Shown in pieces: positions 47,917-64,000 of a stretch of DNA of 64,000 bases. The first letter of the stretch is position 1. The number at the start of each line of letters is the position of its first letter. A model generated the notes under the pieces. That model worked only from the letters and a program-made list of their open reading frames with translations, did not search any database and was not told the origin of the DNA. Both the position numbers and the translations under genes were made by a program. Source of the DNA: Mucilaginibacter gracilis (lineage in GTDB: Bacteria > Bacteroidota > Bacteroidia > Sphingobacteriales > Sphingobacteriaceae); contig NZ_RBKU01000001.1 of NCBI RefSeq assembly GCF_003633615.1, positions 2,232,001 through 2,296,000 of the forward strand, given 5' to 3'.

Positions 47917-47924
47917 AAAAAGCG

Positions 47925-48020
47925 GATGGTGGGCTTTCTACATCGTTATATGGAGGTTTGTCAACGGCCCTCTATGGCGGCTTATCTACGGCAATTGGAG
48001 GGGGGCTATCAACCGCAGTC
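47925..48020 (+). repeat. Four 24-bp tandem repeats encoding GGLSTA
   Basis: Units at 47925, 47949, 47973 and 47997 translate as DGGLSTSL, YGGLSTAL, YGGLSTAI and GGGLSTAV. Across the four units the codons for Gly-Gly-Leu-Ser-Thr differ almost only at synonymous positions (for example GGT, GGA, GGC, GGG), which points to selection at the protein level. They begin next to the point where MobC homology ends. Confidence 0.8.
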
Positions 48021-48155
48021 GGAAATGGCTATAGAAGTAATATTCCGCCTTGGCCTTTTTTTTTAATGGAATTGGATAAAAGGGGCTTTAGAGTTCAGGC
48101 AGCTTTACTGAGGAGACACCTTCCGTCCTTTCTTTTCCCAGAAAATTATTTTTAA
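47958..48155 (+). CDS. Small GGLSTA-repeat protein, start uncertain or lost
   Basis: The frame from 47877 to the TAA at 48155 is open. The only usual start codon before the end of the repeats is TTG at 47958, inside the second unit, so the true 5' end may be missing. After the Gly-rich repeats come GNGYRSN, IPPWPFFLMELDKRGFRVQ and a Leu/Arg-rich helix. The part from IPPWP on looks like a folded helical piece. It is divergent from mobC and partly overlaps its upstream region. I know no function; synonymous change between repeats argues that it is or was a real protein. Confidence 0.4.
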   Translation: MSTALYGGLSTAIGGGLSTAVGNGYRSNIPPWPFFLMELDKRGFRVQAALLRRHLPSFLFPENYF

Positions 48156-48276
48156 ACAATAATTAAAATGACGATCTATCTAATTAATAAATGGATTTTT
48201 TGATGATTGGCCGAAGACAGTCGCTTAAAATAATTTTCGGAGTTACACTCTAATAACAAATTCTTATTAAACTCGA

Positions 48277-50088
48277 TTAGAATAATCCCATCTGACCTCT
48301 GTCGTCAATTTCAAGATTGTCTGGATTGGTGATCTCGAATTCTATCATTTTAATTGGTTCTTTGTCAGGGCTTTGTGGCAGTAGTTGGTATAATACAATT
48401 TTAATTTGTTCGGTGAATGGCTCAGTTCTAATGGAGTCTCTATCTAAATCTCCATTTGCAACGTGATTAACGATTTTTGCTGCTTCCTGAAAGGTTTGTT
48501 TGACTAATGTATCGTCCCAAAGTACTTTCAGCAAATTGTCACAGTATTTAACCATATCTTTTGAGTTTGGCCTTGGTAAAGAACTATAATCGTTTAGCGC
48601 CAAACAACGGAATACAAAAAGTAAATGATACCTCGCTGGTTTAAACGTGGGAGGGATTGCTCCAACTCGAAATAAATAATCAAGCTTGTAATATGAATAT
48701 GCTGAAACATAATACATCTCCAATTTGTGTTCAAGATTAAATATATCGGTGCCTACTGACTTTAAAAGCGCTTTATAGTTCCGTGTTGTTCTGTGAGGAA
48801 CCTCCAAAAAAACCGAAGCAAATGCGCGAACTAACGTGGTCATATTGATGATTCTAACCTTTTCAACGGTCTCGTCTGAATTATATTGACGTGATCTTCT
48901 TTCATAATACAAACGTTTTGATCCCTCATATGTAGGAAAGTACGTTTCGAGTTTTTTAGGAAAGTCGGCTAAAGCAAACAATTGTTCTTGTGTCACTTCA
49001 GTCTGACGATTAGTGGCCTTTATAATAGAATTTCGCACCTCAACGTCCTCCGTAGCAACGATTCTAACAGGAACAAGTACATCCGCATTTAGGTACGCGC
49101 GTGATTCATACAAAACAAAACTTGTTTGACACCCGTTTACAATTTGATAATCTTCCAAAACGAATTTGTTCCCTGTTGGGGTTATCCGTCGTGCGATAAT
49201 TGTAACACCATTATTTAAAAGAGGGAAATAAATTTTAGAAATCGGATCTTCGAGAGTTTCTTTAATTTCTTTATTGACAGCATTCCATTCTTGCCAATGT
49301 CTAACATTGTCGTAAAACAATGATGTAATAACTTCCTCGTTACTGTTTTGAATCAGTTTCAGATATTCAATAGAACTTAGTAAGCCAATATAAGCCTGTT
49401 CAATATTTGGTAATTCAGGTAAAGCAGTTTTCTGAGGGAAATTAATCTCAGTTGATATCGCGTTTTTGGATTCACGAAAAAGTTTTTGGATACGTTCCGC
49501 ATCTACAAATTCTAATTCAACCCGCCGGAATAAAGTCAATCCCCGCAAGTCATCTAACGCCGCGTTCCTTCTTGCCACTAAATTAGCATCAATAACCCAC
49601 TTCCCAGTCGTTGAATAATAGAGAAAACATTGAGGATTACCTTTCTTAAATTTGCTGCTTCTGTTAAATATCTCGCTAACTATCTTATATTTTACCTTAA
49701 GGTCTTTGTTCTGTGGGAGAGCGGGTTCAGTAGAAAGAAAGTCTAATACTCCAAAACTGAATTGTCCAATTTTTGCAGTTTCAAAGCTACTTGACCTTTC
49801 CGCCTGATTAAATATTAAAGTAACATCAAGATATCCATTTGTTTCAGCAAGATCTTCGATTTCAACATAATCAGTCACCAAACAACCGTTGACGATGATT
49901 GATATCGTATCAATGCCACCATCTCCGCCAGCGCCTATATGAATATCTTCAGTTGAAAATGTTTCAGTATAATGGTTGGACGTAACCAAATATCCGGTAA
50001 AATGTTCAAATGCTGTCTCTTCTGGAAGAGACACAAGATCGTTCTGTTTAACAAACTCTTCAAGCAACGATTTTGTGATCCTGTCCAT
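48277..50088 (-). CDS. AIPR-family (abortive infection phage resistance) protein
   Basis: This 603-residue protein matches the AIPR family. The N-terminal half (about 1-230) has GAGGDGGIDTISIIVNG and a restriction-endonuclease-like feel (VEIEDLAETNGYLDVTLIF). The AIPR core (about 255-420) shows FYDNVRHWQEWN, LLNNGVTIIARR and DYQIVNGCQTSFVLYES. The family was named from abortive-infection proteins that stop phage growth. The gene stands alone in this island between the mobilization cassette and the MoxR system, both on the same strand. Function is inferred from family and place. Confidence 0.87.
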   Translation of the reverse strand: MDRITKSLLEEFVKQNDLVSLPEETAFEHFTGYLVTSNHYTETFSTEDIHIGAGGDGGIDTISIIVNGCLVTDYVEIEDLAETNGYLDVTLIFNQAERSSSFETAKIGQFSFGVLDFLSTEPALPQNKDLKVKYKIVSEIFNRSSKFKKGNPQCFLYYSTTGKWVIDANLVARRNAALDDLRGLTLFRRVELEFVDAERIQKLFRESKNAISTEINFPQKTALPELPNIEQAYIGLLSSIEYLKLIQNSNEEVITSLFYDNVRHWQEWNAVNKEIKETLEDPISKIYFPLLNNGVTIIARRITPTGNKFVLEDYQIVNGCQTSFVLYESRAYLNADVLVPVRIVATEDVEVRNSIIKATNRQTEVTQEQLFALADFPKKLETYFPTYEGSKRLYYERRSRQYNSDETVEKVRIINMTTLVRAFASVFLEVPHRTTRNYKALLKSVGTDIFNLEHKLEMYYVSAYSYYKLDYLFRVGAIPPTFKPARYHLLFVFRCLALNDYSSLPRPNSKDMVKYCDNLLKVLWDDTLVKQTFQEAAKIVNHVANGDLDRDSIRTEPFTEQIKIVLYQLLPQSPDKEPIKMIEFEITNPDNLEIDDRGQMGLF

Positions 50089-50282
50089 TGGTTCTATAAT
50101 TACTTAACTAAGATATTATTTTTTGATGATAGAATACTCTATATCCTAGAATTAATCCCCAAATAACGATAGCACTTTCCATAATAGTAAATCATCCGGC
50201 CAGATTATTTTCTCGTTCTCTTAGACTAGGGTAATAATGATCCTTAAATCCAAACTTGGTGATTATTTCCCCTGAGGTAGTT

Positions 50283-53009
50283 TTAAACATCGCCAAGGCG
50301 ATACACCGAAACTCGCCCATCATATTCCAGAAAGGCGCAATGATGCCGTTTAGGTATCGCCACGATCGCGATGATCGTATTTTCAGTATCGATCAGACCT
50401 TCGGGCGTAGGATTTTCTTTGCTGATGTCAAATACGCCGGCGCGTTTTCCCCCTGCAACGACCAAACGGTTATCGGTCATCAGCCGGATGTCCTGACCTT
50501 CAATATCCTGCCCAAAGAAACCAGAAGCGACACCTATCCCTTTCAAAGTCGGGGTTACCAGTACGGAACCCTCTGTGGTCAGCAACGCGATCTTTAACGC
50601 GGTATGCGGCCCTGTAACGGTCGATTTCAGGATCTGGGCACCGATGCTCAACGCCTCGGTTTGTCCTTCCGGGCTGATCCGCAATAAAATTTCCCCTTTG
50701 GCGTAATAAAAATGACCTTTGCGCCAAACCATCGCCGAAGGGTCAAAGCCATTTTGCCCGGGATTCACCCGCTCATCCATCATGCCGATATCGATCGTAC
50801 GCAATAATGCACCCGTTCTGTTGAAATGGCTGAGTTGCAGACCATGGATGGTAAAATGCAATACACTTACCCCGTTCTCCACGTTGAGGCAGCATCCAAG
50901 GGCAGCTTCCGGCAAAAAATCGAGCGTTTGTAAAACTGCTTCCCGCTCAAAATAGGAATAAGCCCCGAGTTGCTGGTTAGTATGCGTGCTGATCTTTTCT
51001 CCAACGATCAATACCTGGTCGGATAAGGCAGGGTCGGCAAGCAGGGCCAAAGGCGAGTCATTATATCCCACCTTAAACAGGTATTGATAAGTTTGTTTTC
51101 CTTCCCAGTTGCCCCTGAAATAATGTAAGTCTCCTTGTTGCTGCCCGATCGCCATGAGCTGATCATGGTACGTCATGATGGCGTACCAATTGGTATTGTT
51201 CCGTAACTGGATATAGTCCGGCTTGGTATAGACCGGCGGCAATTGCAGGCGATGCTGGATAAAACGATTGGTATCCGCGTTCAGCAAACGGTCTTCTGGC
51301 AAAAAACTGCTCATCATCTTCAAGCCACTGGTATCACCCGATTCAACCTGTTGGTGAATGATCTCATAAGCGATGCCCAGCGAGGTTTCATTCAGCTGCG
51401 CTTCTGGGTAACGCCGGTTCATCTCTGCCAGCACGGTCAGGAAAGATGTCTTTTTGAGCCGGGGTACATGCTGGGCATAGACCTGCCTGACCTCCTGTGC
51501 CAGCTGCCCATGCTCATCATCATGGCGTAGCTCCAGATAGGCGCTTAAGCAAGCTTCGGGCTGCCCGGTATCCGCCCAGCCTTCCAATAAGAGGGATTCA
51601 GCTTCTTTCTTTTGCTTTAATTTATCCAGGGTCAGGACCGCTGCTTTTTGATAATCTTTAGCCTGCCTGAATTCGGTCACTTTTTCCCGGTAACAAGCTT
51701 CAGCTTTTTCCTCCCGGCCGATCATCAGGTAAAGATCACCTGCTTTTTCGAGGTTGTTCAGTTGGAGATAAATCGGAATGGCCTCTTCGAGCAAGCCTCC
51801 TTTTTCCAGGCATTCGGCAGCCATACGCTCGTTCTTCAGGTGATCCCGGTATAAGGCCGCGGCCTCCCGGTACATTTTCCCTTGCTGCAACACATTGGCC
51901 GCGGTATAAAAGTCGCCCAGCAAATGCGCATGGATATAGGCAGCCCGTTTAAAATTCCCCTGCTCGACGGCTTCATTAGCTGTTTTGATATAGCGGGCCC
52001 GTAACTGGGCGTTGTAATTGCTCAGGTCCCAGCCGTCCACCCTGCGACCACCACCCAGGTTGCGCAAATTAAATTGCGTCTGACGCCGGGTCAGTTTACC
52101 CGATTGCGGAGCGCTCCCGCGGTTCAAATAAGGGCTGCTGAGCGGAATAGCATATTGTAACGCCTCATCGCTATTTTTATCAAACAGGTCCATTAAACGC
52201 TTGAGTTCGGTATCGCGCTGTTTTTCGATATCAGCCAGTTTTTGCCCGACCCATTGCTCGATCTTGTGCAACAACCCGCCAGAGGAACCGGAACGGGGGA
52301 AAGCTCCAGAGAAGAACCAAGATAGTGGCGCAAAAATGATTTTGCCGATCAGCGCCAGCAGAAGTAACATATACAGGCCCAGCTGGGCGAGCCAGTTCGT
52401 TGCCTGTTTACCATATTTTTGTAAGGCGGTTTCGTCCGGATCGGCAGAAGGGATCTGGTCAAGCGATTTACTTCCGACATCCTCTTTGATCGCTTCCATT
52501 ACGCTTTCCGGCTCGTCTTCAACCTTCAGCCCGATCTGCTGTAAGACAGGCGCCGGGGTCAAACCCGGGTGCGCGAAACTCCAGTCCGACGGTCTGGGTG
52601 CAGATAAATGAACAAAGTCGGTTAATTTCACTTCGTCTTTGGATTCAAAGCCCACCAGCCCGATATTGGGGTGAAAGACCTGGATATCCCATAAAAGTAA
52701 AGCCTTGAGCTCATCAGCACCGGTTACGGGCCAAAGGTCTGCCTGTACGGGTAAATAAAGCTTATCTGTCATGCGTCCATAAGGGTAACGAACCAAAGCC
52801 GCGGGCGGCTGCTGCGTTCCGAAGATGACGAACAGGCCGGACCCGCTATCGTCATGAATACCCTGTGGGAGGACATAACAACGCAGACCATTGAGATCGA
52901 CCTTCCAGGTATCCAGTTCCCGGAACCAGCCCGCAGGCGAAGCCCCTTGCAAGAATGCACCGGCCAGCGGCCGTTTGCTGTGTTCGTTATAGCGAAGTTT
53001 GAGCTGCAT
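50283..53009 (-). CDS. bpX6-type protein: N-terminal bpX domain, membrane helix, TPR-like repeats, C-terminal beta-propeller
   Basis: This 908-residue protein is the last gene of the MoxR-vWA-propeller locus. The N-terminal domain (about 1-150, PLAGAFLQGASPAGWFRELDTW) resembles bpX6. One membrane segment lies near 210-235 (LGLYMLLLLALIGKIIFAPL). Helical TPR-like repeats cover about 345-540 (FKRAAYIHAHLLGDFYTAAN, NNLEKAGDLYLMIGREEKA). The rest is a beta-propeller with repeating loops up to YDGRVSVYRLGD. It starts 1 bp after the vWA gene stop. Such proteins are thought to be the scaffold or sensor of the ternary system. Confidence 0.75.
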   Translation of the reverse strand: MQLKLRYNEHSKRPLAGAFLQGASPAGWFRELDTWKVDLNGLRCYVLPQGIHDDSGSGLFVIFGTQQPPAALVRYPYGRMTDKLYLPVQADLWPVTGADELKALLLWDIQVFHPNIGLVGFESKDEVKLTDFVHLSAPRPSDWSFAHPGLTPAPVLQQIGLKVEDEPESVMEAIKEDVGSKSLDQIPSADPDETALQKYGKQATNWLAQLGLYMLLLLALIGKIIFAPLSWFFSGAFPRSGSSGGLLHKIEQWVGQKLADIEKQRDTELKRLMDLFDKNSDEALQYAIPLSSPYLNRGSAPQSGKLTRRQTQFNLRNLGGGRRVDGWDLSNYNAQLRARYIKTANEAVEQGNFKRAAYIHAHLLGDFYTAANVLQQGKMYREAAALYRDHLKNERMAAECLEKGGLLEEAIPIYLQLNNLEKAGDLYLMIGREEKAEACYREKVTEFRQAKDYQKAAVLTLDKLKQKKEAESLLLEGWADTGQPEACLSAYLELRHDDEHGQLAQEVRQVYAQHVPRLKKTSFLTVLAEMNRRYPEAQLNETSLGIAYEIIHQQVESGDTSGLKMMSSFLPEDRLLNADTNRFIQHRLQLPPVYTKPDYIQLRNNTNWYAIMTYHDQLMAIGQQQGDLHYFRGNWEGKQTYQYLFKVGYNDSPLALLADPALSDQVLIVGEKISTHTNQQLGAYSYFEREAVLQTLDFLPEAALGCCLNVENGVSVLHFTIHGLQLSHFNRTGALLRTIDIGMMDERVNPGQNGFDPSAMVWRKGHFYYAKGEILLRISPEGQTEALSIGAQILKSTVTGPHTALKIALLTTEGSVLVTPTLKGIGVASGFFGQDIEGQDIRLMTDNRLVVAGGKRAGVFDISKENPTPEGLIDTENTIIAIVAIPKRHHCAFLEYDGRVSVYRLGDV

Positions 53010-53010
53010 C

Positions 53011-55377
53011 TTATTTCAATTGCCGGATAAAAGGTTCGATATAGGTGTGGTAAAAATCCGCGGCCAGCATCACATTGCTTTGACGGTTGCCGGTAAAATA
53101 CGACGAACCGGTGATCTTACCATCGGCGCTCCAGCAGGCGGTCGTCTTTTCGATCACCAGGATGATACTGCTCTCCGGGATATCCGCATCCGAGCTTTTT
53201 AAATGCAAAAAGCCCCTGGAGTCCAGTACGGCCTCGCTGCCATCCGCCCAGCTAAATTTAGTGAATTTGATATAAGGAAGGTGTGCTACCTCGATATTTT
53301 CCTGTTTGACAGGTTTAACTGTTTCAAGGGAGTTCAGGCTATTGTCCTTCAGACTGATATTGCGACCGTGCTGGTCGAGCCGGATCTCGCGCTGATCGAT
53401 ATACAGTCTGCCAGACGTGTTCACATAAATATTTTTGGCAGAATTGATCACACTGTAGCCGTTATTGATCAGTTTCTTGATCTGGTTAAGCACCTGGAAA
53501 TGTGGAATCGACGGTAAGGCTTTGAACAGTTTCCTATCCATAGCCGTCGGCATACTCTGCCCGGTCAGCGGGTCCACGGAGACAACGTCGGCCACGCGTG
53601 CGATATGGAACAAGCCGTTATCAAACTTGACCTCTTCGGCTTTAATGTTATTCAGTTCATGGATCATCAGGTTAGGATTTTCCAAATCCACCTGATAGAT
53701 TCTGAGATAAGCCCCGGGCAGGTTTCTGACCAAAATGAATAGGTAGGTTTTGACCTGTCCCCAGTAGTAATCTCCGGCATCAAGCTGATCGACGAGTTCC
53801 CTGGCGCCCTGGTCTTTCTCTGTCCAGCATAATACCCGCCGGTCCTGGGTAATGATCGCTGTTTGCCCTGTGCTCATTTTAAAAGTGTTGTCATGCTTCA
53901 GCTTGATCTTGGATGAAGGGAATAGCAGCGGGAAGTCCGTTTCGGAAAGCATGGCCGGTAAGCCGGATAGGTTATAGTTGCGCTGCGCGGGCCGTTTTCG
54001 GTTAAAGAGCGTTTCCTCCAGATCGATCAGGGCCGTGGCCGCCAGTTTATAGCGTTTGCCCCGGGTCTCGTATAAAGCGATATGCCCGTCCCGATTGACC
54101 TCGACCAGGTAGTCCAGTTGTTCCTTGACCTGGGCAAAGGCGGTCATAAAAGCGGGATCTTCCCGATAATGCGGCCCGGTGATCAGGATATATTTTGCCT
54201 TGGCAGTAACGGTATCTGATACCAGTTTTTTGAGCTGCGCCCCACAGTTAAGCGCAGGGTCCAATTGTTCTAACGTCGTTAAAATACCTTCCTTGGTATG
54301 CAGTTCCATCGGCAGGGAAACTTTACCCCCCAAAGCCCAGGCATCCAAAGGATCCCGTTTGCGCCCTTCGCTAAAAGCCAGCGCTGCCGCCAGGCCAAAT
54401 ACCCGGGGCATGCCCCACATCTTAAGGGTAGTATCTAATAAAATATGCCATTCCTGGTTCGCCTGATCGGGTAATTCTTCACGCTGCAGGAACAAAGCTT
54501 CGTTATTGGCAAGCCTGGCAGTAAGCAGCAGGTCGTCCTGTGCCAGTTCACTCAATAATAATTTATCAAAATGCCCCCGGTTGCTGATATCGGAAACGCC
54601 GCCGATAGACTGGTCACTGCTACCGCTCAGGTGCATTGGGATATTCAGTGCCGCGCTGATCTGGTGCGCCAAACGCGCCAAACCGGCCGTCTTCAGATCG
54701 GCGGTTAAAGTCGCCATCAGGTCGTCGGGTGCCGGAGCCGGCAAGGGGATAGCTGCTTTTACGGGGATATTCGTGATCCCGGTCCGCAGTTTCATTTCCA
54801 GCGTAGCCGTATCTTTAAATTGTTCCAGTGCGAAGGCCAGCGGCATCAGATCGGTTTGCAGTGCAGTAAATCCAAAATCAAGACTTCGGTTAAAAATAAG
54901 CTCATCCAGCGAACCGCCGCGGAATGTTTTCAGAATGCTCTTGAGCGGTTTACCGTCTTGTTTGTTTGAGTTTTCCAGCACCGCCTGGCACAAGGTCACG
55001 CGTTTGATGCCTGAGCGGCATTCAAAAGGAAGGCCGTTGATTAACTTCATCAGCTCGAGTGCCTGTCGGATCATTTGCTTGGCGACCATATGCTCGGTCT
55101 CCTGGTAATCAGATCGGTATCCGAGCCTTTGCAGATATGATCCCGGTTCAAATAAGGTTTCGGAATTGTCCTTACAAGCGCAAAGCAGCAGCAGCACCGT
55201 TCCGATGGTGATCTCGGCGGAAATCTCGAGTGAATCTAAAATAAAGACTAGGTCCTCCCGGTAACAGATCGTGCCGCCGTTGGCAAACTCCAGGACATCC
55301 CCTCCTTCGGCCCATTTCCAAAAGTAACCGTTCATCCCCTGGAAATAACGGATGGTTTTGATTTCATGCTCAGTCAT
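53011..55377 (-). CDS. vWA and beta-propeller protein of the MoxR ternary system
   Basis: This 788-residue protein has an N-terminal bpX-type domain (about 1-180, GYFWKWAEGGDVLEFANGG), a central vWA-like domain (about 260-440, EWHILLDTTLKMWGM, KAKYILITGPHYRED), and a C-terminal propeller-like part. The MIDAS motif is reduced to DTT instead of DxSxS, so metal binding may be weak. It overlaps the bpX2-like gene by 8 bp. In this family the vWA protein is the partner moved by the MoxR ATPase. Assignment rests on gene order and fold-like motifs. Confidence 0.7.
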   Translation of the reverse strand: MTEHEIKTIRYFQGMNGYFWKWAEGGDVLEFANGGTICYREDLVFILDSLEISAEITIGTVLLLLCACKDNSETLFEPGSYLQRLGYRSDYQETEHMVAKQMIRQALELMKLINGLPFECRSGIKRVTLCQAVLENSNKQDGKPLKSILKTFRGGSLDELIFNRSLDFGFTALQTDLMPLAFALEQFKDTATLEMKLRTGITNIPVKAAIPLPAPAPDDLMATLTADLKTAGLARLAHQISAALNIPMHLSGSSDQSIGGVSDISNRGHFDKLLLSELAQDDLLLTARLANNEALFLQREELPDQANQEWHILLDTTLKMWGMPRVFGLAAALAFSEGRKRDPLDAWALGGKVSLPMELHTKEGILTTLEQLDPALNCGAQLKKLVSDTVTAKAKYILITGPHYREDPAFMTAFAQVKEQLDYLVEVNRDGHIALYETRGKRYKLAATALIDLEETLFNRKRPAQRNYNLSGLPAMLSETDFPLLFPSSKIKLKHDNTFKMSTGQTAIITQDRRVLCWTEKDQGARELVDQLDAGDYYWGQVKTYLFILVRNLPGAYLRIYQVDLENPNLMIHELNNIKAEEVKFDNGLFHIARVADVVSVDPLTGQSMPTAMDRKLFKALPSIPHFQVLNQIKKLINNGYSVINSAKNIYVNTSGRLYIDQREIRLDQHGRNISLKDNSLNSLETVKPVKQENIEVAHLPYIKFTKFSWADGSEAVLDSRGFLHLKSSDADIPESSIILVIEKTTACWSADGKITGSSYFTGNRQSNVMLAADFYHTYIEPFIRQLK

Positions 55378-56095
55378 GGCCCGTTTCCGTTAGACGCACC
55401 GCGCTGCGGCGTGCGGGTTGAAAATGAGCGATCGGGATGGCCTGCCAGTTACCATCAGGCTCAAACAGCATCAATGTTTCTTTTGGCGCCTCGGCGAGTG
55501 CGCCTAATACAGGCGGGTCGAGGTCGTAACCACTTGGCAAAAGCATTTGGTCCCGGGGCCAAAAAGTCTTGCCGGGTAATTGCGGCAAAGGGCGTCCGAT
55601 CACTAACACTTCACCTTTTCCTGAAACAGCGAAACTTAACGTTTGCAATCGTGTGCCTGCCGCGGTTTCCGCATAGGCTTTCCAGCTCTTCAGGTCCGTC
55701 ATCAAGGCAAAGACCTCCTGCACAACGGCTGAACGGGACAAACGGATCGTGACCGGAAGGAACAATTTCCCGGGCATTGCCGATACCGGGAGCTCGATCG
55801 GGACGAAGGCCTTGATCGGTTGCCAGTCCAATTTAGGGAGTTTACCGGTCGGCGTTTTCTGTTGGTCAGGAAACAATCGCTCCACCGGATCGGCGGTATA
55901 GCGGTGCAAAACAGGTAAGGAAGCGATGCGTTTATCCGGTGTGCCGCCCACAGCGATACCCCGGAGCCAGATCAGATCCCCATCGGTAGCGGCTTTTAAG
56001 CCGGGGATGCCACGCAGACCGCCCAGCGTATCGCCGTATTTATTTTCCAATACCAGGATCTTTTCCATTAGGCGGTATGCATTATCTTTTTCCAA
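55370..56095 (-). CDS. bpX2-like protein of the MoxR ternary system
   Basis: This 241-residue protein starts MEKDNAYRLMEKILVLE and contains DGDLIWLRGIAVGG (about 38-51) and RLSRSAVVQEVFALMTDLKSW, which resemble the bpX2 domain of MoxR-vWA-propeller loci. It has no signal peptide, membrane helix or catalytic motif that I can see. It overlaps the MoxR gene by 28 bp and the vWA gene by 8 bp, so translation is coupled with both. It is probably an adaptor; no biochemical role is known. Confidence 0.65.
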   Translation of the reverse strand: MEKDNAYRLMEKILVLENKYGDTLGGLRGIPGLKAATDGDLIWLRGIAVGGTPDKRIASLPVLHRYTADPVERLFPDQQKTPTGKLPKLDWQPIKAFVPIELPVSAMPGKLFLPVTIRLSRSAVVQEVFALMTDLKSWKAYAETAAGTRLQTLSFAVSGKGEVLVIGRPLPQLPGKTFWPRDQMLLPSGYDLDPPVLGALAEAPKETLMLFEPDGNWQAIPIAHFQPARRSAVRLTETGHD

Positions 56096-57219
56096 AGCTC
56101 ATCGATGGGCTTTTGTACATAATTTCGTTGCTCTTCATTGCCGATCCAGCCACAGCGGCTGTTCAGGTGGGCAAGCCGGTCCTTGATGACCGATCGCTCT
56201 GCCATGGAGATCTCTTCCTGCCATTGCTGGCTGAGTTGCTCCACTTCGTTATAGATCTCGTCCGGGTTAGGAACAGAGCTGAGGGAGGCCCTGGGGTGAC
56301 TGGCTTCTTCTTTAGCGCTCAGGTCCACGACGGCGCTCACGATATTGCAGATGATCTCGCGCTGTTCTTCCGTATCCCAGATATGGCGCAGGACCCACAG
56401 GTCTGATGCGATGGCTTTCTCCCGTTTGCAGATCAACGCGCTGGCGGCGATCAGCCTTTGCAGTTTGACCGCGCGGCGGTCGGATACTGCGAGGCCAGAA
56501 TTGCGGAGTTTTTGAATGAGTTCAATATAGTCCTTGCGGATACCGCTCAGGTCGACCAAAGAGGTTTGTCCCTGCAATTGCCGGATATCTTCGGTAGCTA
56601 TACTTGGCTTATCGCCGGCAGCCTTTTGTTCCAGCATCCAGCCGGCGTCAAGTAAAGCATTCAGTTGTTGCGGGTCGACGTTATCGCAGCGGACCCGGAT
56701 CAAAAAGCGGTCGAACAAGGCTTGAAGGGCCTCGTCCTCGGGTAAATGGTTGCTGGCACCGATCACCATCAGGGCAGGCAACTGTCGGGTTTCCCTGCCG
56801 CGGCGGAAGATCTTTTCGTTCAGGACCATGAGCAAACTATTCAGGATCGCGCTATTCGCGTTGAGTAATTCGTCCAGGAAGATCAGCGAAGCCTCTGGCA
56901 ACATCCCTTCCGTATTGGTCACGAGTTCTCCATCCCGCAATTTACGGATATCGAACGGGCCGAATAGTTCATTGGGCTCGGTAAATCGTGTCAGCAGGTA
57001 TTCGAAGGTTTTGCCATCGAGTAATTTGGAGAGTTCCCTTACGGTCGCACTCTTTGCGGTGCCCGGAGGGCCCAACAGAAACAGGTTCTCCCTACCCACC
57101 AGGCAAATGCCCATCAGGTCGATGATCTCGTCTTTGCCGACAAATAATTCTTTCAGGTGCCGCAGAACGGCCTGGAGTTTGTCGACGGTCGCAAATTCTT
57201 GGGTAGTATTTTTAGTCAT
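56068..57219 (-). CDS. MoxR-family AAA+ ATPase
   Basis: This 383-residue ATPase has Walker A in LLGPPGTAKSATVREL (about residue 53), Walker B in ASLIFLDELLNANSAILNSLL (about 110), sensor 1 in VIGASNHLPEDEALQALFDRF and the following DRF/IRV arginine region. A C-terminal helical domain follows (about 240-383). MoxR proteins act with vWA partners as remodelling machines that load metal or change partner complexes. Overlaps with the genes on both sides (8 and 28 bp) show one tightly coupled operon. It is the energy-using core of the ternary system. Confidence 0.93.
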   Translation of the reverse strand: MTKNTTQEFATVDKLQAVLRHLKELFVGKDEIIDLMGICLVGRENLFLLGPPGTAKSATVRELSKLLDGKTFEYLLTRFTEPNELFGPFDIRKLRDGELVTNTEGMLPEASLIFLDELLNANSAILNSLLMVLNEKIFRRGRETRQLPALMVIGASNHLPEDEALQALFDRFLIRVRCDNVDPQQLNALLDAGWMLEQKAAGDKPSIATEDIRQLQGQTSLVDLSGIRKDYIELIQKLRNSGLAVSDRRAVKLQRLIAASALICKREKAIASDLWVLRHIWDTEEQREIICNIVSAVVDLSAKEEASHPRASLSSVPNPDEIYNEVEQLSQQWQEEISMAERSVIKDRLAHLNSRCGWIGNEEQRNYVQKPIDELWKKIMHTA

Positions 57220-57844
57220 GTTTAGTTAATTCATTGAATTCAAGCCCCGGCCAGAATTGTTCCTGGTACAGGCCCATCGTTTCTGTCAGCGCCACTTGTT
57301 CCCGCTCACCGAGGCGGGTCAGATCCCGGTGTGCGATAATGCGGTCAAGATAAATGGTTTTCAAGGCGGCGTTGTTTAAAATAGGTTGCGTATCGGCGAT
57401 GGTTTGGATATTCAGTCCCACCGAGGACAATGGCCAGGCCGCGGCTGTTTCTTTCAGTCTTTGAACAAGCGGGTCGTCCGGCGAGATCCCGCTGCTAAAT
57501 TTGAACAGCGGCCCGAGGTGGCGGAAGAGCAGATCGACAGACCACATCGCCGAGTCATCCAGCGTTCCGGTATAAGGTTGTAAATAGTTTTCCATGAGCT
57601 CTGCTTCCAGTTCCCGTAACAACACGAACTGGATGGAGCGGTACAGGTATTGTGCCGCCCAAAGCGCGGCATCTTTGTTCAGCCCAGGTAATTCAGCGGG
57701 CATCTCCAGACGTTCGGTCCGGTCGAGCTCAGCGATCAGCCGTGCCGAAGCCTCCAGGTCAGCGGCGTTAAAGTCGGCTAACGCGCGGGCAACGGTTACC
57801 CGGCCTTCGCTGAATAAACTGTTTAAAAATTCGCTGAATTGCAT
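57212..57844 (-). CDS. bpX4-like protein, first gene of the MoxR ternary operon
   Basis: This 210-residue, mainly helical protein has GLNKDAALWAAQYLYRSIQFVLLRELE (about 53-80), a pattern I associate with bpX4 domains of MoxR-vWA-propeller systems, and an acidic middle part. It has no catalytic motif. It overlaps the MoxR gene by 8 bp. As the first gene it sets the reading of the unit. The family assignment is moderate; the role is likely structural. Confidence 0.55.
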   Translation of the reverse strand: MQFSEFLNSLFSEGRVTVARALADFNAADLEASARLIAELDRTERLEMPAELPGLNKDAALWAAQYLYRSIQFVLLRELEAELMENYLQPYTGTLDDSAMWSVDLLFRHLGPLFKFSSGISPDDPLVQRLKETAAAWPLSSVGLNIQTIADTQPILNNAALKTIYLDRIIAHRDLTRLGEREQVALTETMGLYQEQFWPGLEFNELTKHD

Positions 57845-58041
57845 GATCCTTAAAATAAACGAATAATATTGGCTTTAGCAAAAACATGGGTACCTAAATG
57901 CAGGCTCAGTAATTTCTAATTGCTATGTTTCTCTAATATTGTTGGTAATGAAACTATTTAACTAAATATTAAAACAGTCTCATTTCTAAAAAAAAGCGTC
58001 AATATGCAAGATCATTAAGTGCGCGTTAAACCGTCGGGCAT

Positions 58042-58076
58042 AAAAAAGACCGCCTCATAAACTTTATGAGGCGGTC
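58042..58076 (-). terminator. Intrinsic terminator of the HD-Pnk gene
   Basis: GACCGCCTCATAAA pairs fully with TTTATGAGGCGGTC around a very short loop. On the minus strand a run of six T follows. It lies 10 bp after the stop of the minus-strand gene. Confidence 0.9.
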
Positions 58077-58085
58077 GAGCAGCTC

Positions 58086-59192
58086 TTAACTTACATGGTA
58101 GCTTAATTCATGCGCTTCCCACAGCGCAGGTATTTCCAGTTTATGAGTTAACCGGTCTAAAACCGCTGCAGGTACTCTGGCATCACGACTTTTATTTTGT
58201 CCATGGAGGTTTTCATAGGGTACTTCAACATAGGTGATCTTCACCTTTGCTTTATAGGTGGTGAACAGATCAATCAGTTGCATTCGCATTTGGCTGGTGG
58301 TATTGGTTGCGTTCCAGATGAAAGATTCTTGTTTGCGCAGATAAACCCTCGCCTGTTCTTTTGCTTCCTGTATCACTTGCCCGTTACCTGTTTTATCTGT
58401 TGGAGATATACCCCGTTCGACACGCATATGATCTAACGAAATGACCAGCCAATCCGGATAATGTTTTTTAATAAAAGTATCTTTGCCCGCACCGGGTAAA
58501 CCACTCATCAAAATTACTTCAAACGCAGGCTCATCAAACGGAACATAATCCAGATAAGCATCATCATGTTGCATATAATACATTTGTGCATGCCCCGAAG
58601 TAAACGCCCGTGCTTTACCCCAACAATCATTTTCTTGACAAAACGCTTCAAAGCAGTCGATGCGATAAAGCATTTCCTCCTGATCGTCACAAACGCGGCC
58701 CAACATATCGGCACGAGCCAGCAGAGCTAACCATTGGGTATTGACTTCCATACTGGCTTTTACTAAGGCCTTCAATGGGTCTGGCTTTTCAAACAACCAT
58801 ATGGGTAAACCATGATGGCGTACCAAACCAACGATCTGTTCGCGAATGACGAAAGGCGCAGGCTCATTTATGTAAAGCAATTGCCTTGCAAACTGAGCAC
58901 CTTTACGGGCATGACCGTTTGATGTAATGCTGCCATCAGTCTCAAAAACCGTAGTGCTATATTTTTCAACGTCATGTAATAAAGCGGCTGCCCATAATAT
59001 TTCCTGATCATCTTCGGACAAAACCTGAAAAGCCGGTTCTACTTTCAATGCCGCCAGTACCATTTGCGTATGTATAGCCACGTTGCCTTCGGCGTGATAG
59101 CGTGGGTCTTGCTGAACTTCGTTCATACGTTTTATCCAGTCAAATCGCTGTTCAAGATATGTCCAATCTTTGTGTTCACTAAAGGTCCACAT
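58086..59192 (-). CDS. HD-Pnk: HD phosphoesterase fused to polynucleotide 5'-kinase
   Basis: This 368-residue enzyme has an N-terminal HD domain (about 35-190) with HTQMV, LLHDVEKYST (about 73) and RHHGLP as metal-binding motifs. The C-terminal P-loop kinase domain has GLPGAGKDTFIKKHYP (about 234) and SLDHMRVE. The same order is known in Runella slithyformis HD-Pnk, which removes 2',3'-cyclic phosphate and adds a 5' phosphate to RNA ends. It overlaps the ligase gene by 14 bp, so end healing and sealing are made together. It likely repairs RNA cut by ribotoxins. Confidence 0.88.
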   Translation of the reverse strand: MWTFSEHKDWTYLEQRFDWIKRMNEVQQDPRYHAEGNVAIHTQMVLAALKVEPAFQVLSEDDQEILWAAALLHDVEKYSTTVFETDGSITSNGHARKGAQFARQLLYINEPAPFVIREQIVGLVRHHGLPIWLFEKPDPLKALVKASMEVNTQWLALLARADMLGRVCDDQEEMLYRIDCFEAFCQENDCWGKARAFTSGHAQMYYMQHDDAYLDYVPFDEPAFEVILMSGLPGAGKDTFIKKHYPDWLVISLDHMRVERGISPTDKTGNGQVIQEAKEQARVYLRKQESFIWNATNTTSQMRMQLIDLFTTYKAKVKITYVEVPYENLHGQNKSRDARVPAAVLDRLTHKLEIPALWEAHELSYHVS

Positions 59193-59886
59193 AATTCCTC
59201 CTTTCGTTAATTAATGGTGCACGTTTCCAGTTGCGAGTCCAGTGTTCATCGGTTTTAACATGCCCCTTTCGTACATATTTAAATACGTTTTGAGCAAAAG
59301 CATCAACAGCATAACTGTCGGCATTACGACTAACAATACCCTCCATGGTAGTTGCTTTTTGATCATAGACATCATAAGGATCAAACGCACCCGTACCGTT
59401 TACCAATGTCAGCATTTCGGCTTCAAACCGCTGTTGATCTTTCGGCGTCGCTTCGGTTTTAGCGATTGGAACAGTAGGCAGATCAAGCATATTGGCATAA
59501 AACTGAGTTTCCTCCCAGCTCAACCATTGGTCGTGCTCTCGTATGCCGAACACATAAAAATGATGCTCCAGTTTACGATATTCTATAGAATGTATCGCAT
59601 ACAGATTCTCTCCGAAGATCTCCAGATCGCCTAGGTCATGTTTAACCATCTGCCAGAATCGCCTGAGACTTTCAGTCCATGGTGATATAGTTGGCGCCGC
59701 ATGCGAGCGCGCAAAAACGCCAAGTTTAGACAGGCAATTATTTTCGCCGTCCAGTTTTTCTGTATGTATTAAGTTTGGGATGCGTTGTAGATGCTCCCAA
59801 TAGTCGTGCGCTATACGGTCGTCGCTGGTTGTGCCCGGCGAAAACGGATAATGATAGGTACGACCATATTTTTGTGATAAAGCCAT
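59179..59886 (-). CDS. ATP-dependent RNA ligase
   Basis: This 235-residue nucleotidyltransferase has motif I EKLDGENN (Lys about residue 43), motif Ia ARSHAAPT, motif III LEIFGENLYAIHSI, motif IV MEGIVSRN and motif V VFKYVRKGH, all in the right order. This is the Rnl-type RNA ligase fold without further domains. It is the first gene of a two-gene cassette with HD-Pnk. Together they can heal and seal broken tRNA or other RNA. The possible promoter (CAAATGTA on the plus strand) lies about 120 bp upstream. Confidence 0.9.
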   Translation of the reverse strand: MALSQKYGRTYHYPFSPGTTSDDRIAHDYWEHLQRIPNLIHTEKLDGENNCLSKLGVFARSHAAPTISPWTESLRRFWQMVKHDLGDLEIFGENLYAIHSIEYRKLEHHFYVFGIREHDQWLSWEETQFYANMLDLPTVPIAKTEATPKDQQRFEAEMLTLVNGTGAFDPYDVYDQKATTMEGIVSRNADSYAVDAFAQNVFKYVRKGHVKTDEHWTRNWKRAPLINERRNYVDL

Positions 59887-60262
59887 GTTTTCAAGATTAA
59901 AATTAGAAAATAAAAAGTCGCTTCCTTCCCCGGGATGGGAAAGATCATAAATGATTTATGCGCGGACTATTACATGGCTCAAAACTTAAAGCGTTTTTTG
60001 TGATACAAATGTAAGAAACTAAATCTGAATACATTAATGGTTGCTAAAGATTGCTTATAGCACTCAAACCTCAACTATTTTATGCTGCTAATGGAATGTG
60101 GTGATTATCCAAGATAAAGAAATGTAATTCGATTCGTAAATTGAAGATTAATCTCAAAGCAATGTATGTTCTTTATTTCCTGAATTCTCTCGCGTTAAAT
60201 AGATTTATCGTATTTCAAGTAAATTCTATCTATTTTAGTTTACTATTAAACTCCTTGTCACC
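59887..60262. other. 376-bp divergent intergenic region
   Basis: It separates the RNA ligase (minus) and SWIM (plus) genes. It holds a likely minus-strand -7 box at 60006-60013. No gene or strong hairpin is seen, and no TAnnTTTG box is clear for the SWIM gene (closest TATTTTAG near 60230). Confidence 0.5.
60006..60013 (-). promoter_or_regulatory. -7 box of the RNA ligase-HD-Pnk operon (TACATTTG on minus strand)
   Basis: The plus strand reads CAAATGTA, the reverse complement of TACATTTG, which fits TAnnTTTG. The leader would be about 110 bases. Confidence 0.45.
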
Positions 60263-61603
60263 ATGTCAGACACTATTACCTATCAGTACAATAAATCATC
60301 TGCTTTGAACAAAGCAAACTCTTTAGATGAGTTGTTTTTGGCAAAATACAGTGAGGTTCAAAAGAAAAATTCGTCCTGTTTTTTTTGGGGTCGCCTGACT
60401 GACCCATATACTACTGCGCGATGCCTGCTGGCCTTATCTAACGTGGTGCAGTCTAGTTTCAGTTTATCTCCTTTTCAGCTTGCCTTGTTAAAGGACCCTA
60501 TTGTTACAGCTGGTAACGAGAAAATCAGGTTCGAGGGATTTTCGCATTGTGCTGGTGTATACGCGCGGGTAGATGTTTTAGGGGACGGGCACGATGGTGA
60601 ATTCCTGGAAAACGGCACTACGAATGTAGATTTCAACCAACCGATGCTTTCAGCCTTGAGCGGTATTCGCAAAAACGAAAACGTTTTACTTTCTATCGGT
60701 CAGAAAGAGGTAGGCCTGCATCGCGAAAATGAAAAGGTAATCGAACGTAAAGTACCGCTTCCAGTAAAATGGATCAAGGGTTTAACTTCAGTGCAGATGT
60801 TCCTTTCAGAGTCTGAGAAAGTACACTCGTTCAACCGGCTTCAGGCTTTGCAGTTATTTAAATCAATACCAGCCGGTAAACCTAAGACCGATTACTATTT
60901 ACTGGTTCGGGGGGGCAAGCCGATATTTTCTCCAGTCAAATCTAATGATGCTATAACAATTGGCGGCATACACCGGTTAAAACTGATTGAACCCCTGCTG
61001 GCTATGGCGGATGAGTTGAGAGTTTTCCCGCATACCACTATGCAGGCAACGACCTGGCAGGTTTATATCGGGGCGATAAGATTCACCTTGTCTTTATCCA
61101 GGGATGCCTGGCGCGGATTTTCGGGTGAAGGGGCAGCGTTGGAATCTTTGATTGAAGATGTGCCGGACCAATGGGTAGAACTGGTAGACAACTACAGTTA
61201 TGCCAACCAGGAATTTAATGCGACCCTACTCGCCGTAAATGAAGGTTTAGATTTGAAAAAAGTAGAAAATATAACCGGGAGGCTATCGGCTATCGGGCTA
61301 CTGGGCTATGATCTGGACGAAAATAATTTTTTCTACAGAAGGCTTCCGTTCAAGCTAAGCAGGATTATGAGCCTTAATCCAAGACTAAAGGATGCCGAGA
61401 AACTGCTGGCGGAGGGTAAAGTAAAAATTATTGCAAAACATGATAATAAAGTAGAAGCACAGGTGGAAGGTAGCGGCGTAAAACATATCGTTATACTTAA
61501 CGGAGATAAGGAGCAGTGCACGTGTACCTGGTTCAGTAAAAACCAGGGAGAGCGCGGTGTCTGCAAGCATATTTTAGCAGTTAAAAAACTTATACTTAAC
61601 TAG
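60263..61603 (+). CDS. SWIM zinc-finger protein
   Basis: This 446-residue protein ends in a SWIM finger, with CTCTWFSKNQGERGVCKHILAVKKL giving CxCx(n)CxH at about 416-440. The rest is mixed alpha/beta without a known enzyme motif. SWIM proteins of this length are encoded next to MoxR ATPase, vWA and DUF5682-like proteins (as in the E. coli yeh cluster), where they may bind nucleic acid. The next gene starts 6 bp after its stop. Its promoter is not clear. It is likely the first gene of a second MoxR-type system. Confidence 0.85.
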   Translation: MSDTITYQYNKSSALNKANSLDELFLAKYSEVQKKNSSCFFWGRLTDPYTTARCLLALSNVVQSSFSLSPFQLALLKDPIVTAGNEKIRFEGFSHCAGVYARVDVLGDGHDGEFLENGTTNVDFNQPMLSALSGIRKNENVLLSIGQKEVGLHRENEKVIERKVPLPVKWIKGLTSVQMFLSESEKVHSFNRLQALQLFKSIPAGKPKTDYYLLVRGGKPIFSPVKSNDAITIGGIHRLKLIEPLLAMADELRVFPHTTMQATTWQVYIGAIRFTLSLSRDAWRGFSGEGAALESLIEDVPDQWVELVDNYSYANQEFNATLLAVNEGLDLKKVENITGRLSAIGLLGYDLDENNFFYRRLPFKLSRIMSLNPRLKDAEKLLAEGKVKIIAKHDNKVEAQVEGSGVKHIVILNGDKEQCTCTWFSKNQGERGVCKHILAVKKLILN

Positions 61604-61609
61604 ACTGCC

Positions 61610-64000
61610 ATGACCGTCACCGAAGAGTTTGCGAGTATCGTTGCGAAGGAAGCCGAAGTCATTCCATTTTTGAAGGGGTTGGACAAAGCGCAAAAAAAAG
61701 AATTGGGGCCATCCCTCAAAAAGCTCCAGAAGCACTATTCGGAGTTTGTACAGCAGGGAACAAGCTCGTCTTATTCTTCCAGGGGATCGCAAGCTCAAAA
61801 TTTGATTCTAAGCACTGCCGCATTTATTTGTTTCAACCAAAAAGATTTTGAGCAAAGTGTTTCCTATGGGATCATTAACCGCGAGAAACTTACACCAATT
61901 TTACCCTGGTTTTGTCCGGACTGGTTCAATACTTATGTAGACAAGCTATCCCAGCAGGAGTTTGTGCCCTTTGATTACAACTGGTATCTGGATCTGATCG
62001 ATCAGGGCTATTTGCAGCTTAACCGGCAAATGGTCGCGAAAATCTTACCGGAGCTTATTTTCGTAAGAAAAGAAAAGACCTGGAAATTTGAGTACCACCC
62101 CGAAAATCTTTTAAAAAGAGAATCGACCTTAAAAGAACATCTCTGGTATTTATTTGAATTTGAAACCAACTTACACGCCGCTGAAAACTACAAGCAATTC
62201 GAGGACAACTCCGCTCCAGGTAGATGGATGAATGCGCTGAAACTTTACACTAACCAAGGAAAGATCAGCAGGGAGAGGCTGTTAAATGAAAGTATTTTAT
62301 GTGCAACAAAGAACTTTAACCAATCAGCATCGAATTGGTTTATGGATTTTTTTATGTTTCTGGAACCTTCCAAAGGTGAACTGCTGCACTTCCAAAACGA
62401 ACTGTTAAACACTTTTAATTCCGCCAATAGCAAACCTTATAACGTTGTTTTGAAATTATTTAAGGATTTGGTGGTTGATCCGGAATTTGCAATCTTACCA
62501 TTCCTTGACCATGTACCTTTGGTACTGACGGCTGAATCTAAAACAGCGGTTTCCTCAGCTCTGATGGTTTTAGATAAGCTGGCCAAAAAGTATCCTGACC
62601 AGCAGGAGCAAATCTGTGTGATTGCCTGCCAGGCTTTTATACACCAGGACAATAACTTGCAGCTCAGAGCGGCTAAGCTGCTTCAGAAATATGGCGACAC
62701 CAATTCTGAAACGCTTAAAGAAGCGCTTCAGGCTTATTATGAGAGCCTGTTTTCAGAAGCGCGCCACATCTTATCCGATTTTTCAAAGGAGTATATAAGC
62801 AGCGATGCTTTAATTGAAGATCAGCTACCGGAAGCAGCTACAGCTCTGGTGGAAATAAAGTTGCCTGAAAACTTTGACGAATTCGTCTTCTTAGCCAGCC
62901 AGTCATTTGATCAAAACGAAACGTATCATTTTGACTTGTTACCTGCGAGTATCCTGAAATTTCAAGATCAGATGACAGCGGGTAATATCCTCAAGTTAAT
63001 GCCCGCCTTCCAACGGGCTTATAAAATAATCACCAGTGATTGGGCCAGCACAATGGGTTACCTAGATAGCATGCTGGCGAAGTTTTTCACAAGCTATGGC
63101 CAGCTCCTGGTTAGCCTTAACCCTGTAGCCGCTGAGCCCATTCGCTTAATGCATCAATCTTTTGTCAAATCAGAGGAAGAAAAAAAGGCTAAATGGAATA
63201 GCTATCAAATAAGGCTCGGAAGCATTAAGGCATGGGAGATTTATACACATTCTACAGGATACAAACCACATAAGCATATCTTGCTCAATGCTTTTTTTAT
63301 GCTGGAGAGAAATAAAAGTCTGCCCTTACTGTCTACGCCAACGCATGAACCTTGCCGGGTCTCAACAATCGCATTAATTGAGCGCCTCAGTCTTTATCAG
63401 AAAGCTAATGTTATTCCAGGTGACATGGACTTTCAGGTCGCGATAGCGCGTTGTTTTACGATTGATCAGGCAGAGGCCCTCAAAATTGCAAATGCTAAAC
63501 TTCACGGTGAATATCGGGAATTGGTAGGAGTAGTCTTTGGCGAAGAACAGTCACCGAAAGACGGCTCCAAGCTTAAATCTGCCTGGCTGGTGGCTGGCGT
63601 AGTAAGAAATTCAGGTAATTTGACGAAATGGGCTAGCTATACCAGTTTAACGGATGCTTACCTTACCGGTGATTTCGCATGGAATTCATTAGTGGAGAAT
63701 TACATCTCACAGCAATATGATTATAACCTGCGCAAAAACATTGATGTACATGCTAAAAGAAAAATCATCAGGATCGACTTTGGTGACAAACAAAAAAAAA
63801 CATCAGTTTTTAAAACGGCGTTAATTAAGATCCTTCAGATCCCTGCTAAAAAAGAAACAGATTTGTCTATCTATGATTATACTGAACTCAAATTTGACTA
63901 CATCTCGGCTGAGCACAATGACATCAAACGCCTGCTTTACCTTAATCCAAATCAGCCGCAAATTCTGCTCGCTCACATCATTAACAAAGGGTTAAAATAT
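61610..64000 (+). CDS. Large DUF6493-like protein, 3' end outside window
   Basis: The frame from ATG (MTVTEEFASIVAKEAE) is open for 797 codons to the window edge. The protein is mainly helical with many Leu/Glu repeats, consistent with HEAT-like or other alpha-solenoid repeats (for example LIEDQLPEAATALVEIKLP near 400). The C-terminal visible part contains WKNSYQ-like and TGYKPHKHILLNAFFMLER blocks. I recognise it as probably the DUF6493 family found after SWIM genes in Bacteroidota. No catalytic motif is seen. The 6-bp gap to the SWIM gene suggests one operon. Confidence 0.6.
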   Translation, partial: MTVTEEFASIVAKEAEVIPFLKGLDKAQKKELGPSLKKLQKHYSEFVQQGTSSSYSSRGSQAQNLILSTAAFICFNQKDFEQSVSYGIINREKLTPILPWFCPDWFNTYVDKLSQQEFVPFDYNWYLDLIDQGYLQLNRQMVAKILPELIFVRKEKTWKFEYHPENLLKRESTLKEHLWYLFEFETNLHAAENYKQFEDNSAPGRWMNALKLYTNQGKISRERLLNESILCATKNFNQSASNWFMDFFMFLEPSKGELLHFQNELLNTFNSANSKPYNVVLKLFKDLVVDPEFAILPFLDHVPLVLTAESKTAVSSALMVLDKLAKKYPDQQEQICVIACQAFIHQDNNLQLRAAKLLQKYGDTNSETLKEALQAYYESLFSEARHILSDFSKEYISSDALIEDQLPEAATALVEIKLPENFDEFVFLASQSFDQNETYHFDLLPASILKFQDQMTAGNILKLMPAFQRAYKIITSDWASTMGYLDSMLAKFFTSYGQLLVSLNPVAAEPIRLMHQSFVKSEEEKKAKWNSYQIRLGSIKAWEIYTHSTGYKPHKHILLNAFFMLERNKSLPLLSTPTHEPCRVSTIALIERLSLYQKANVIPGDMDFQVAIARCFTIDQAEALKIANAKLHGEYRELVGVVFGEEQSPKDGSKLKSAWLVAGVVRNSGNLTKWASYTSLTDAYLTGDFAWNSLVENYISQQYDYNLRKNIDVHAKRKIIRIDFGDKQKKTSVFKTALIKILQIPAKKETDLSIYDYTELKFDYISAEHNDIKRLLYLNPNQPQILLAHIINKGLKY

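Follow-up and report, generated by a model that had tools for sequence, protein, structure and literature searches.

Which stress, if any, do the beta-propeller MoxR-vWA ternary systems of bacteria answer? This question is raised by a five-gene operon of Mucilaginibacter gracilis, which was analysed within a stretch of 64,000 nucleotides (contig NZ_RBKU01000001.1, positions 2,232,001 to 2,296,000; hereafter the window) of a genome consisting of a single contig of 6.66 Mb. The operon, designated the bpX operon below, occupies the minus strand from position 57844 down to 50283. Kaur et al. 2020 (eLife; PMC7159879) described this class of systems, called it enigmatic because no effector is visible, and predicted that it acts in conflicts close to the membrane. 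The operon is a member of these systems and hence of a kind already known; new is the pairing with genes for RNA repair and for refilling of nicotinamide adenine dinucleotide (NAD), which recurs in a minority of the genomes and hints at a purpose. We tentatively propose, at a probability somewhat below even, that the intact operon, located at the edge of an RNA-repair and NAD-salvage island, encodes a remodeller answering attack on RNA or NAD.

The bpX operon and its products

Five genes that overlap or abut were observed, with bpX4 as the first (Table 1). All six Pfam models concerned (bpX0 to bpX4 and bpMoxR) scored above their curated cut-offs, and the proteins flanking the ATPase do not fall into unrelated families. 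An earlier interpretation made from the letters alone (the sequence-only reading) had assigned the operon to the predicted MoxR-vWA-beta-propeller ternary systems; profiles, P-loop variant and gene order agree with this assignment. The coordinates, the strand and the overlaps of 8, 28 and 8 bp given there were borne out: the overlap is 8 bp between bpX4 and the MoxR gene, 28 bp between the MoxR gene and bpX2 if the latter starts with the TTG at 56095 (shorter with a later start), and 8 bp between bpX2 and the vWA gene, which is separated from the bpX3 gene by 1 bp. Shared with the systems of Kaur et al. are a MoxR protein with a GXXXTAKS P-loop, a predicted divergent vWA domain fused to a propeller, a third protein with TPR and propeller parts and a transmembrane segment, and additional conserved genes of unknown fold. 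The claim of a complete five-gene system holds for bpX0 to bpX4 and bpMoxR; bpX5 and bpX6 had no match among the ten proteins of the window that were scanned (46865-61603), and neither was an FtsH AAA+ gene, the mark of the FtsH ternary system, found among them.

Table 1. Features of the bpX operon and its surroundings in the window and the profile matches by which they were named
Feature	Position	Strand	Profile match
bpX4 protein, first gene of the operon	57212..57844	-	Pfam PF19920 1.1e-62
bpMoxR AAA+ ATPase, Walker A GPPGTAKS	56068..57219	-	Pfam PF20030 5.1e-105, AAA_5, AAA_lid_8
bpX2 protein	55370..56095	-	Pfam PF19918 3.9e-64
bpX0, vWA-like part, propeller-like beta region and bpX1	53011..55377	-	PF19915 4.3e-35, PF19917 1.3e-29
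bpX3, hydrophobic helix, TPR-like solenoid and C-terminal propeller	50283..53009	-	PF19919 1.4e-48
HD and P-loop polynucleotide-kinase-like protein	58086..59192	-	AAA_33 7.6e-21, HD 3.1e-7
RNA ligase, 14-bp overlap with the kinase gene	59179..59886	-	Pfam PF09414 2e-30
SWIM zinc-finger protein	60263..61603	+	Pfam SWIM 3.8e-4 (barely above cut-off), PADLOC SWIM_XIII 7.9e-59
DUF6493-DUF7824-DUF7825 protein	61610..64000, continues in L007 1611-4517	+	PF20103 3.9e-86 (full gene)
AIPR-family gene, AbiU abortive-infection model	48277-50088	-	PADLOC AbiU 2.3e-132
MobA/VirD2-type relaxase gene with small upstream partner reading frame	46434-47692 (relaxase 46865-47692)	-	

The order of the genes is kept elsewhere. 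A scan of genome contigs (best 80 loci) together with a phylum and a genus sample yielded 94 loci besides the window operon, and all five genes occurred in order in 77 of these, the remaining 17 being subsets with unchanged order, several of them on short contigs or with open reading frames (ORFs) overlooked by ORF picking. Loci with the third gene split into two or more ORFs, including the interrupted second copy described below, were still scored as complete; in several loci this gene consists of two ORFs. The operon was probably acquired horizontally, since its guanine-cytosine (GC) content is 52.1% in comparison to 41.2% for window positions 1-40000, only 5 of 100 genomes from the genus had a bpX2 relative, and bpMoxR exceeded 320 bits in 10 of the 395 genomes sampled from the phylum.

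The ATPase appears intact, as the sequence-only reading had stated: all 11 aligned MoxR proteins, the one of the window included, share an unchanged Walker A (GPPGTAKS) and FLDE, and the former fits the P-loop variant typical of the class (PMC7159879). The nearest solved chains are those of RavA (6e-51), and RavA is also the nearest NCBIfam model (1.2e-49; 169.7 bits, far from the equivalog cut-off of 681).

Residues from about 307 to 450 of the bpX0-bpX1 protein read as a vWA domain from their predicted topology. In the AlphaFold2 model (predicted local distance difference test score, pLDDT, 86.5; predicted template modelling score, pTM, 0.49), the bpX0 part is helical, strands and helices alternate in this stretch, and a beta-rich region follows from about residue 485. 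For the beta region, Foldseek and VIA-align returned propellers, with best coverage at about 485-630. A reduced metal-ion-dependent adhesion site (MIDAS) was observed in an alignment of 79 proteins including that of the window: D315 is present in 79/79, T or S317 in 77/79 and K or R319 in 74/79, and a second Asp near 401 is not conserved. The canonical MIDAS has Ser where K/R319 stands. No vWA profile scored on this protein in the Pfam scan, a comparison of profiles against a single CoxE-type vWA protein gave no match, and a PDB sequence search gave no vWA match. The fold search with the whole model returned propellers, and a lone integrin row spans both parts weakly (Z 8.0; root-mean-square deviation 21.6). 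Thus, of the vWA-propeller protein with reduced MIDAS proposed earlier, the motif and the propeller matches stand, and the vWA fold is predicted from model topology.

The third protein was modelled with a pLDDT of 83.3 and a pTM of 0.43. The model contains the bpX3 domain, a TPR-like solenoid (333-588), a propeller (598-904) and a low-confidence helix at 195-225; the TPR assignment is read from the model, and the GEMI5 TPR match of 2.1e-4 lies under its cut-off. The Foldseek matches are led by propellers, the first being raptor, which is a longer protein. The Kyte-Doolittle maximum over 19 residues is 2.15 at residue 210, which gives a hydrophobic helix at 210-228. Hydropathy reached at least 1.6 in the helix stretch of 20 of 45 aligned bpX3 proteins, the window copy among them, and at another place downstream in a further 8 of the 45. 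The membrane anchor of the TPR-propeller protein is therefore present in the window copy and is not universal, and the location of the complex at the inner membrane, as suggested by the sequence-only reading, is plausible from hydropathy for the window copy. The most divergent parts of this protein are the propeller and the linker (19.8% and 20.1% median identity with the window copy), followed by the bpX3 domain (37.3%), the TPR part (41.1%) and the coil between (52.7%). Hence, unlike in the description by Kaur et al., variation in this clade is higher in the propeller than in the N-terminal domain.

RNA-repair and NAD-salvage genes around bpX operons

A neighbourhood not mentioned in the sequence-only reading begins 241 bp upstream of bpX4 with the co-directional HD-kinase gene (NCBIfam bacter_Pnkp 3.7e-9, much below cut-off). 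Its pairing with the RNA ligase gene was found in 10/10 further loci of the genus and in the genome G439 of the same genus. Within about 20 kb from bpX4, the window and its continuation (L007) contain this HD-kinase and RNA ligase pair, SWIM and DUF6493 genes, PrfH (TIGR03072 3.2e-72, over cut-off), an RtcB-family protein (above the Pfam cut-off and below those of NCBIfam NF007153 and TIGR03073), NrtR, an NMNAT-Nudix-like protein named from matches below the NCBIfam cut-offs, NAMPT, the PRPP synthetase PRS and KptA/Tpt1. The label NAMPT denotes Pfam NAMPT_N plus NAPRTase, and two such proteins are labelled nicotinate phosphoribosyltransferase by NCBIfam; PRS passed the cut-off of TIGR01251 in L007 and in the locus L107 and missed it in the locus L074. 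The NAMPT gene of the island (L007 13589-16271) is split by an ISAs1-type insertion sequence.

Linkage was counted as the distance of six markers (DUF6493, DUF5691, NAMPT, KptA, RtcB and PF09414 RNA ligase) to the bpMoxR gene in 76 bpX genomes, which are the best 80 loci minus L075, L103, L129 and L130. As control, 68 other MoxR places among the matches listed (60.7 bits or less, in 60 genomes) were used; five MoxR rows at 164-186 bits and one fragment belonged to neither anchor set. Retained were 25 of 27 DUF6493 rows, 47 of 48 for DUF5691, 62 of 65 for KptA (one source listing comprised 53 hand-picked genomes, others all 76, and 13 further rows from genomes outside the 76 were excluded) and 46 of 46 for NAMPT. 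For RtcB, 128 of about 150 matches listed were kept after merging of 22 N-terminal fragment rows, the true total being at least this high. Of the RNA ligase rows, 54 of 98 were kept; the 44 omitted, at 54 bits or less, were mostly long ORFs or fragments, and none was near a bpX place when compared by eye.

Within 30 kb of bpX lay 5 of 25 DUF6493 places (expected 0.25), 5 of 46 NAMPT places (0.44), 4 of 62 KptA places (0.57), 4 of 47 DUF5691 places (0.40) and 5 of the 128 RtcB places among the matches listed (1.18). At 20 kb, the numbers were 5 for DUF6493, 3 each for NAMPT, DUF5691 and RtcB, 2 for KptA and 1 for RNA ligase. The control anchors among the matches listed gave 0 for all six markers at both distances. 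At least one marker was present within 30 kb in 18/76 bpX genomes in comparison to 0/60 control genomes among the matches listed, and NAMPT, KptA, RtcB and RNA ligase alone accounted for 12/76. The RNA ligase was rejected as a general partner of bpX (1/54 places), and links that joined different contigs were dropped (DUF6493 in L141, genome G527; NAMPT or KptA in G497, G540 and G496). Among 100 genomes of the genus, relatives of the window RNA ligase occurred in 12, bpX in 5 and both in 3 (hypergeometric P 0.012; this P-value and the one given below assume independence and are therefore optimistic). Both lie near each other in two of these three genomes (that of the window, G000, and G439) and are about 390 kb apart in G470.

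The associated genes recur in varied arrangements, several of them labelled by phmmer resemblance to proteins of the window, L007 or L154. In G439, an HD-kinase, RNA ligase, vWA, DUF5682, MoxR, DUF5691, SWIM, PrfH and RtcB run lies on the other strand from 3.5 kb past bpX3, with four genes between. In G470, also of the same genus, a SWIM-DUF5691-MoxR-DUF5682-vWA set, its DUF names given by resemblance, is located one gene upstream of bpX4. All three Niastella loci (domains scanned in G492, partly in G493) contain bpX, followed by the SWIM-DUF5691 set and then NrtR, an NMNAT-like protein, NAMPT and KptA, interspersed with ADP-ribose hydrolases. Mostly co-directional genes of this kind flank bpX in L074, L107 and L121. 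In L074, bpX4 is preceded by genes for NrtR, a PRS-like protein, NAMPT, KptA and a phosphoesterase, of which all but one opposite gene share its direction; in L107, bpX has NrtR on one side and PRS-NAMPT on the other, within a co-directional run from NrtR to NAMPT; and in L121, bpX is followed by NrtR, NAMPT, NADAR and an ADP-ribosylglycohydrolase. PF09414 ligases also occur in the bpX surroundings of L039 and L112. In Flavobacterium and relatives, the genes near bpX4 encode an RNase_T-type exonuclease (14 loci), a weakly matching ATP-grasp protein (10), Band_7 (8), a phosphoesterase (7), an RLIG1-type RNA ligase (5) and an endonuclease-V-like protein (5), counted as loci in an all-against-all clustering with one member per cluster scanned. 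For Band7-like domains, the part of Kaur et al. concerned names VMAP systems.

The SWIM-DUF5691-MoxR-DUF5682-vWA(CoxE) set recurs beside RNA ligase, KptA, NAMPT and bpX, and is thus a second MoxR-vWA set tied to the same islands. It shares MoxR plus vWA with bpX and differs in its MoxR proteins (23.1 and 19.8 on bpMoxR, cut-off 27) and in its CoxE-type vWA protein, and has no propeller match. The two MoxR-vWA builds occupy similar positions. Furthermore, the repair island is present without bpX in the genome G452, and in G400, which has no bpX2 match, the DUF5691-type set adjoins the same ligase-kinase pair; bpX is therefore an optional module at such islands. The set is apparently undescribed: a search of the open-access literature gave no mention of DUF5682, DUF5691, DUF6493, DUF7824 or bpMoxR. 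The same search found no experiment on a bpX system and no paper linking bpX or MoxR-vWA-beta-propeller systems to RNA repair. The main text of Kaur et al. draws no such link: its only instance of the term RNA repair belongs to the reference list, and it contains neither RNA ligase nor SWIM nor RtcB; a paper on ternary systems from 2024 (PMC10907252) deals, in the part accessible, with VMAP-type loci.

Possible role of the system

As reviewed by Kaur et al. (PMC7159879), MoxR and vWA proteins together serve as chaperones or remodellers powered by ATP in Midasin and RavA-ViaA. In the mechanism proposed here, bpMoxR, putatively as a ring, would remodel or disassemble a target with ATP, and the vWA-like bpX0/bpX1 protein might present this target via its altered MIDAS. 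The bpX3 protein of the window would tether the complex to the membrane, and its fast-changing propeller could recognise a ligand and serve as the sensing surface, with bpX2 and bpX4 as putatively constant scaffold subunits. Because of the neighbouring genes, the most likely source of the trigger or client is an attack against RNA, ribosomes or NAD, a link suggested by neighbourhood only. The ligases, the kinase, PrfH-RtcB, KptA and the NAD-salvage enzymes next to the operon would mend the damage, perhaps in concert with bpX. KptA consumes NAD and so connects RNA repair with NAD (PMC9503650, part accessible). RtcB2-PrfH, whose counterparts are the PrfH and RtcB-family genes of the window island, repairs ribosomes and, in E. 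coli ATCC25922, confers protection from a colicin that cuts ribosomes; a MoxR-vWA part does not appear in the abstract of that study (PMC9223846).

Since the neighbourhood is commoner at bpX than at other MoxR genes, it offers a testable handle on the trigger, and it points to RNases, ribotoxins and NADases as stresses beyond plain phage challenge. The conflict role is a prediction, and a challenge with phages and plasmids alone may be an incomplete assay, since it is genes for RNA repair and NAD salvage that recur beside bpX in the minority of genomes. It is also conceivable, if rather unlikely, that the bpX and the SWIM-DUF5691-DUF5682 builds are interchangeable AAA+ modules of these islands, which would strip or unlock damaged RNA-protein complexes (e.g. 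stalled ribosomes or tRNA complexes) for RtcB-PrfH, the ligase-kinase pair and KptA.

Several observations weigh against a response to RNA or NAD damage. None of the six markers was present within 30 kb of bpX in 58/76 genomes; the 18 positive genomes are related (nine Flavobacterium and three Niastella) and represent about eight taxonomic groups. The PF09414 RNA ligase was not enriched within 30 kb (1/54, expected 0.43), KptA at 20 kb reached only 2/62 (P 0.057) and became clearer at 30 kb, and the RNA ligase-HD-kinase pair occurs without bpX in 9 of its 12 carriers in the genus. Markers were absent from L041 to L045 and from the nine Hymenobacter genomes of the set, were found in only one Chitinophaga, and were absent from the 19.5-kb stretch around the second copy of the operon. 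Islands collect unrelated genes. Moreover, the vWA assignment depends on models and alignments, as does the divergence of the propeller, a divergent propeller being also hard to align.

Alternatively, bpX may be cargo that comes to lie next to RNA-repair islands and has no joint function with them, which we consider a serious possibility, though short of probable. Such a hotspot effect would explain the island without bpX in G452, the carriers of the ligase pair without bpX, the many bpX genomes without markers, and the differing GC contents of bpX (52.1%), the ligase-kinase pair (44.0%) and the AbiU-like gene (36.8%). It fits less well with the recurrence of the associated genes in varied orders, strands and families, with the position of bpX inside the NrtR-to-NAMPT run of L107, and with the lack of markers at the other MoxR loci among the matches listed. 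Compatible with it is a stand-alone system against invaders such as phages or plasmids, in which the N-terminal part of bpX3 would be a membrane effector and the surroundings a defence island. This follows the published prediction (PMC7159879) and is consistent with the AbiU-like gene 194 bp downstream of the operon, the relaxase gene beyond it, the foreign GC content and the patchy occurrence in the genus. On the other hand, no PADLOC model matched any of the five operon genes at E 0.01, the N-terminal domain of bpX3 is not the most variable part in the clade, and a clear hydrophobic segment occurs in fewer than half of the aligned proteins (20/45); we regard this explanation as possible and somewhat doubtful.

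A housekeeping-like chaperone in the manner of RavA-ViaA, which would assemble a membrane or metal-cofactor complex and be unrelated to conflict or damage, appears improbable. RavA-ViaA likewise combines a MoxR AAA+ protein with a vWA partner, interacts with the inner membrane (PMC9489729, part accessible) and provides the best NCBIfam and PDB matches of bpMoxR. The NCBIfam match stays far below its cut-off, however, and bpX is a five-gene operon with propellers. Its patchy presence in phylum and genus, its foreign GC content, a copy on a Hymenobacter plasmid and the faster divergence of the partner proteins than of MoxR between the two copies of the genome also speak against a housekeeping role. 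A response to RNA or NAD damage remains our leading guess, modestly supported and at slightly less than even likelihood, with phage defence as a close rival.

Second copy, mobility and further observations

The genome contains a second operon (L006 6085-13672; G000:C1 about 4678084-4685671), whose MoxR is 90% identical to that of the window, the other proteins sharing 57-66%. The bpX3 gene of this copy is interrupted at nine consecutive T, and a transposase gene (DUF772, DDE_Tnp) lies directly downstream; the interruption could be due to decay, slippage-driven switching or a sequencing error.

No bpX2 match was found in phage sequences at E 1e-3. Among plasmids, MoxR matched four records at E 1e-40, of which one, from Hymenobacter, exceeded 60% identity: the 245-kb plasmid of Hymenobacter yonginensis (NZ_CP115397.1, L156) encodes a bpX-type MoxR with 64% identity and four flanking genes of fitting size. 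In the surrounding 31 kb, no RNA-repair gene name is listed, and a RES-domain gene is located about 13 kb off; a site-specific integrase lies about 8 kb from the MoxR gene. In the window, the relaxase gene and its partner ORF are perhaps the remnant of a mobilisable element. A relaxase-like gene is likewise located near bpX4 in L121.

An identical 373-amino-acid ISAs1-family transposase to that in the NAMPT gene of the island is encoded again at L007 10615-11736. An 845-amino-acid protein without Pfam match (L007 4565-7102) has relatives in the three Niastella islands (L142, L144 and L146), and a conserved protein of about 747 amino acids without a confident Pfam family lies near bpX4 in six loci of Flavobacteriaceae (L141 789-3029 and relatives). 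Two loci contain additional ORFs within the operon: one of 193 amino acids between bpX4 and the MoxR gene (L041 10394-10975) and one of 1185 amino acids between bpX2 and the vWA gene (L073 3465-7022).

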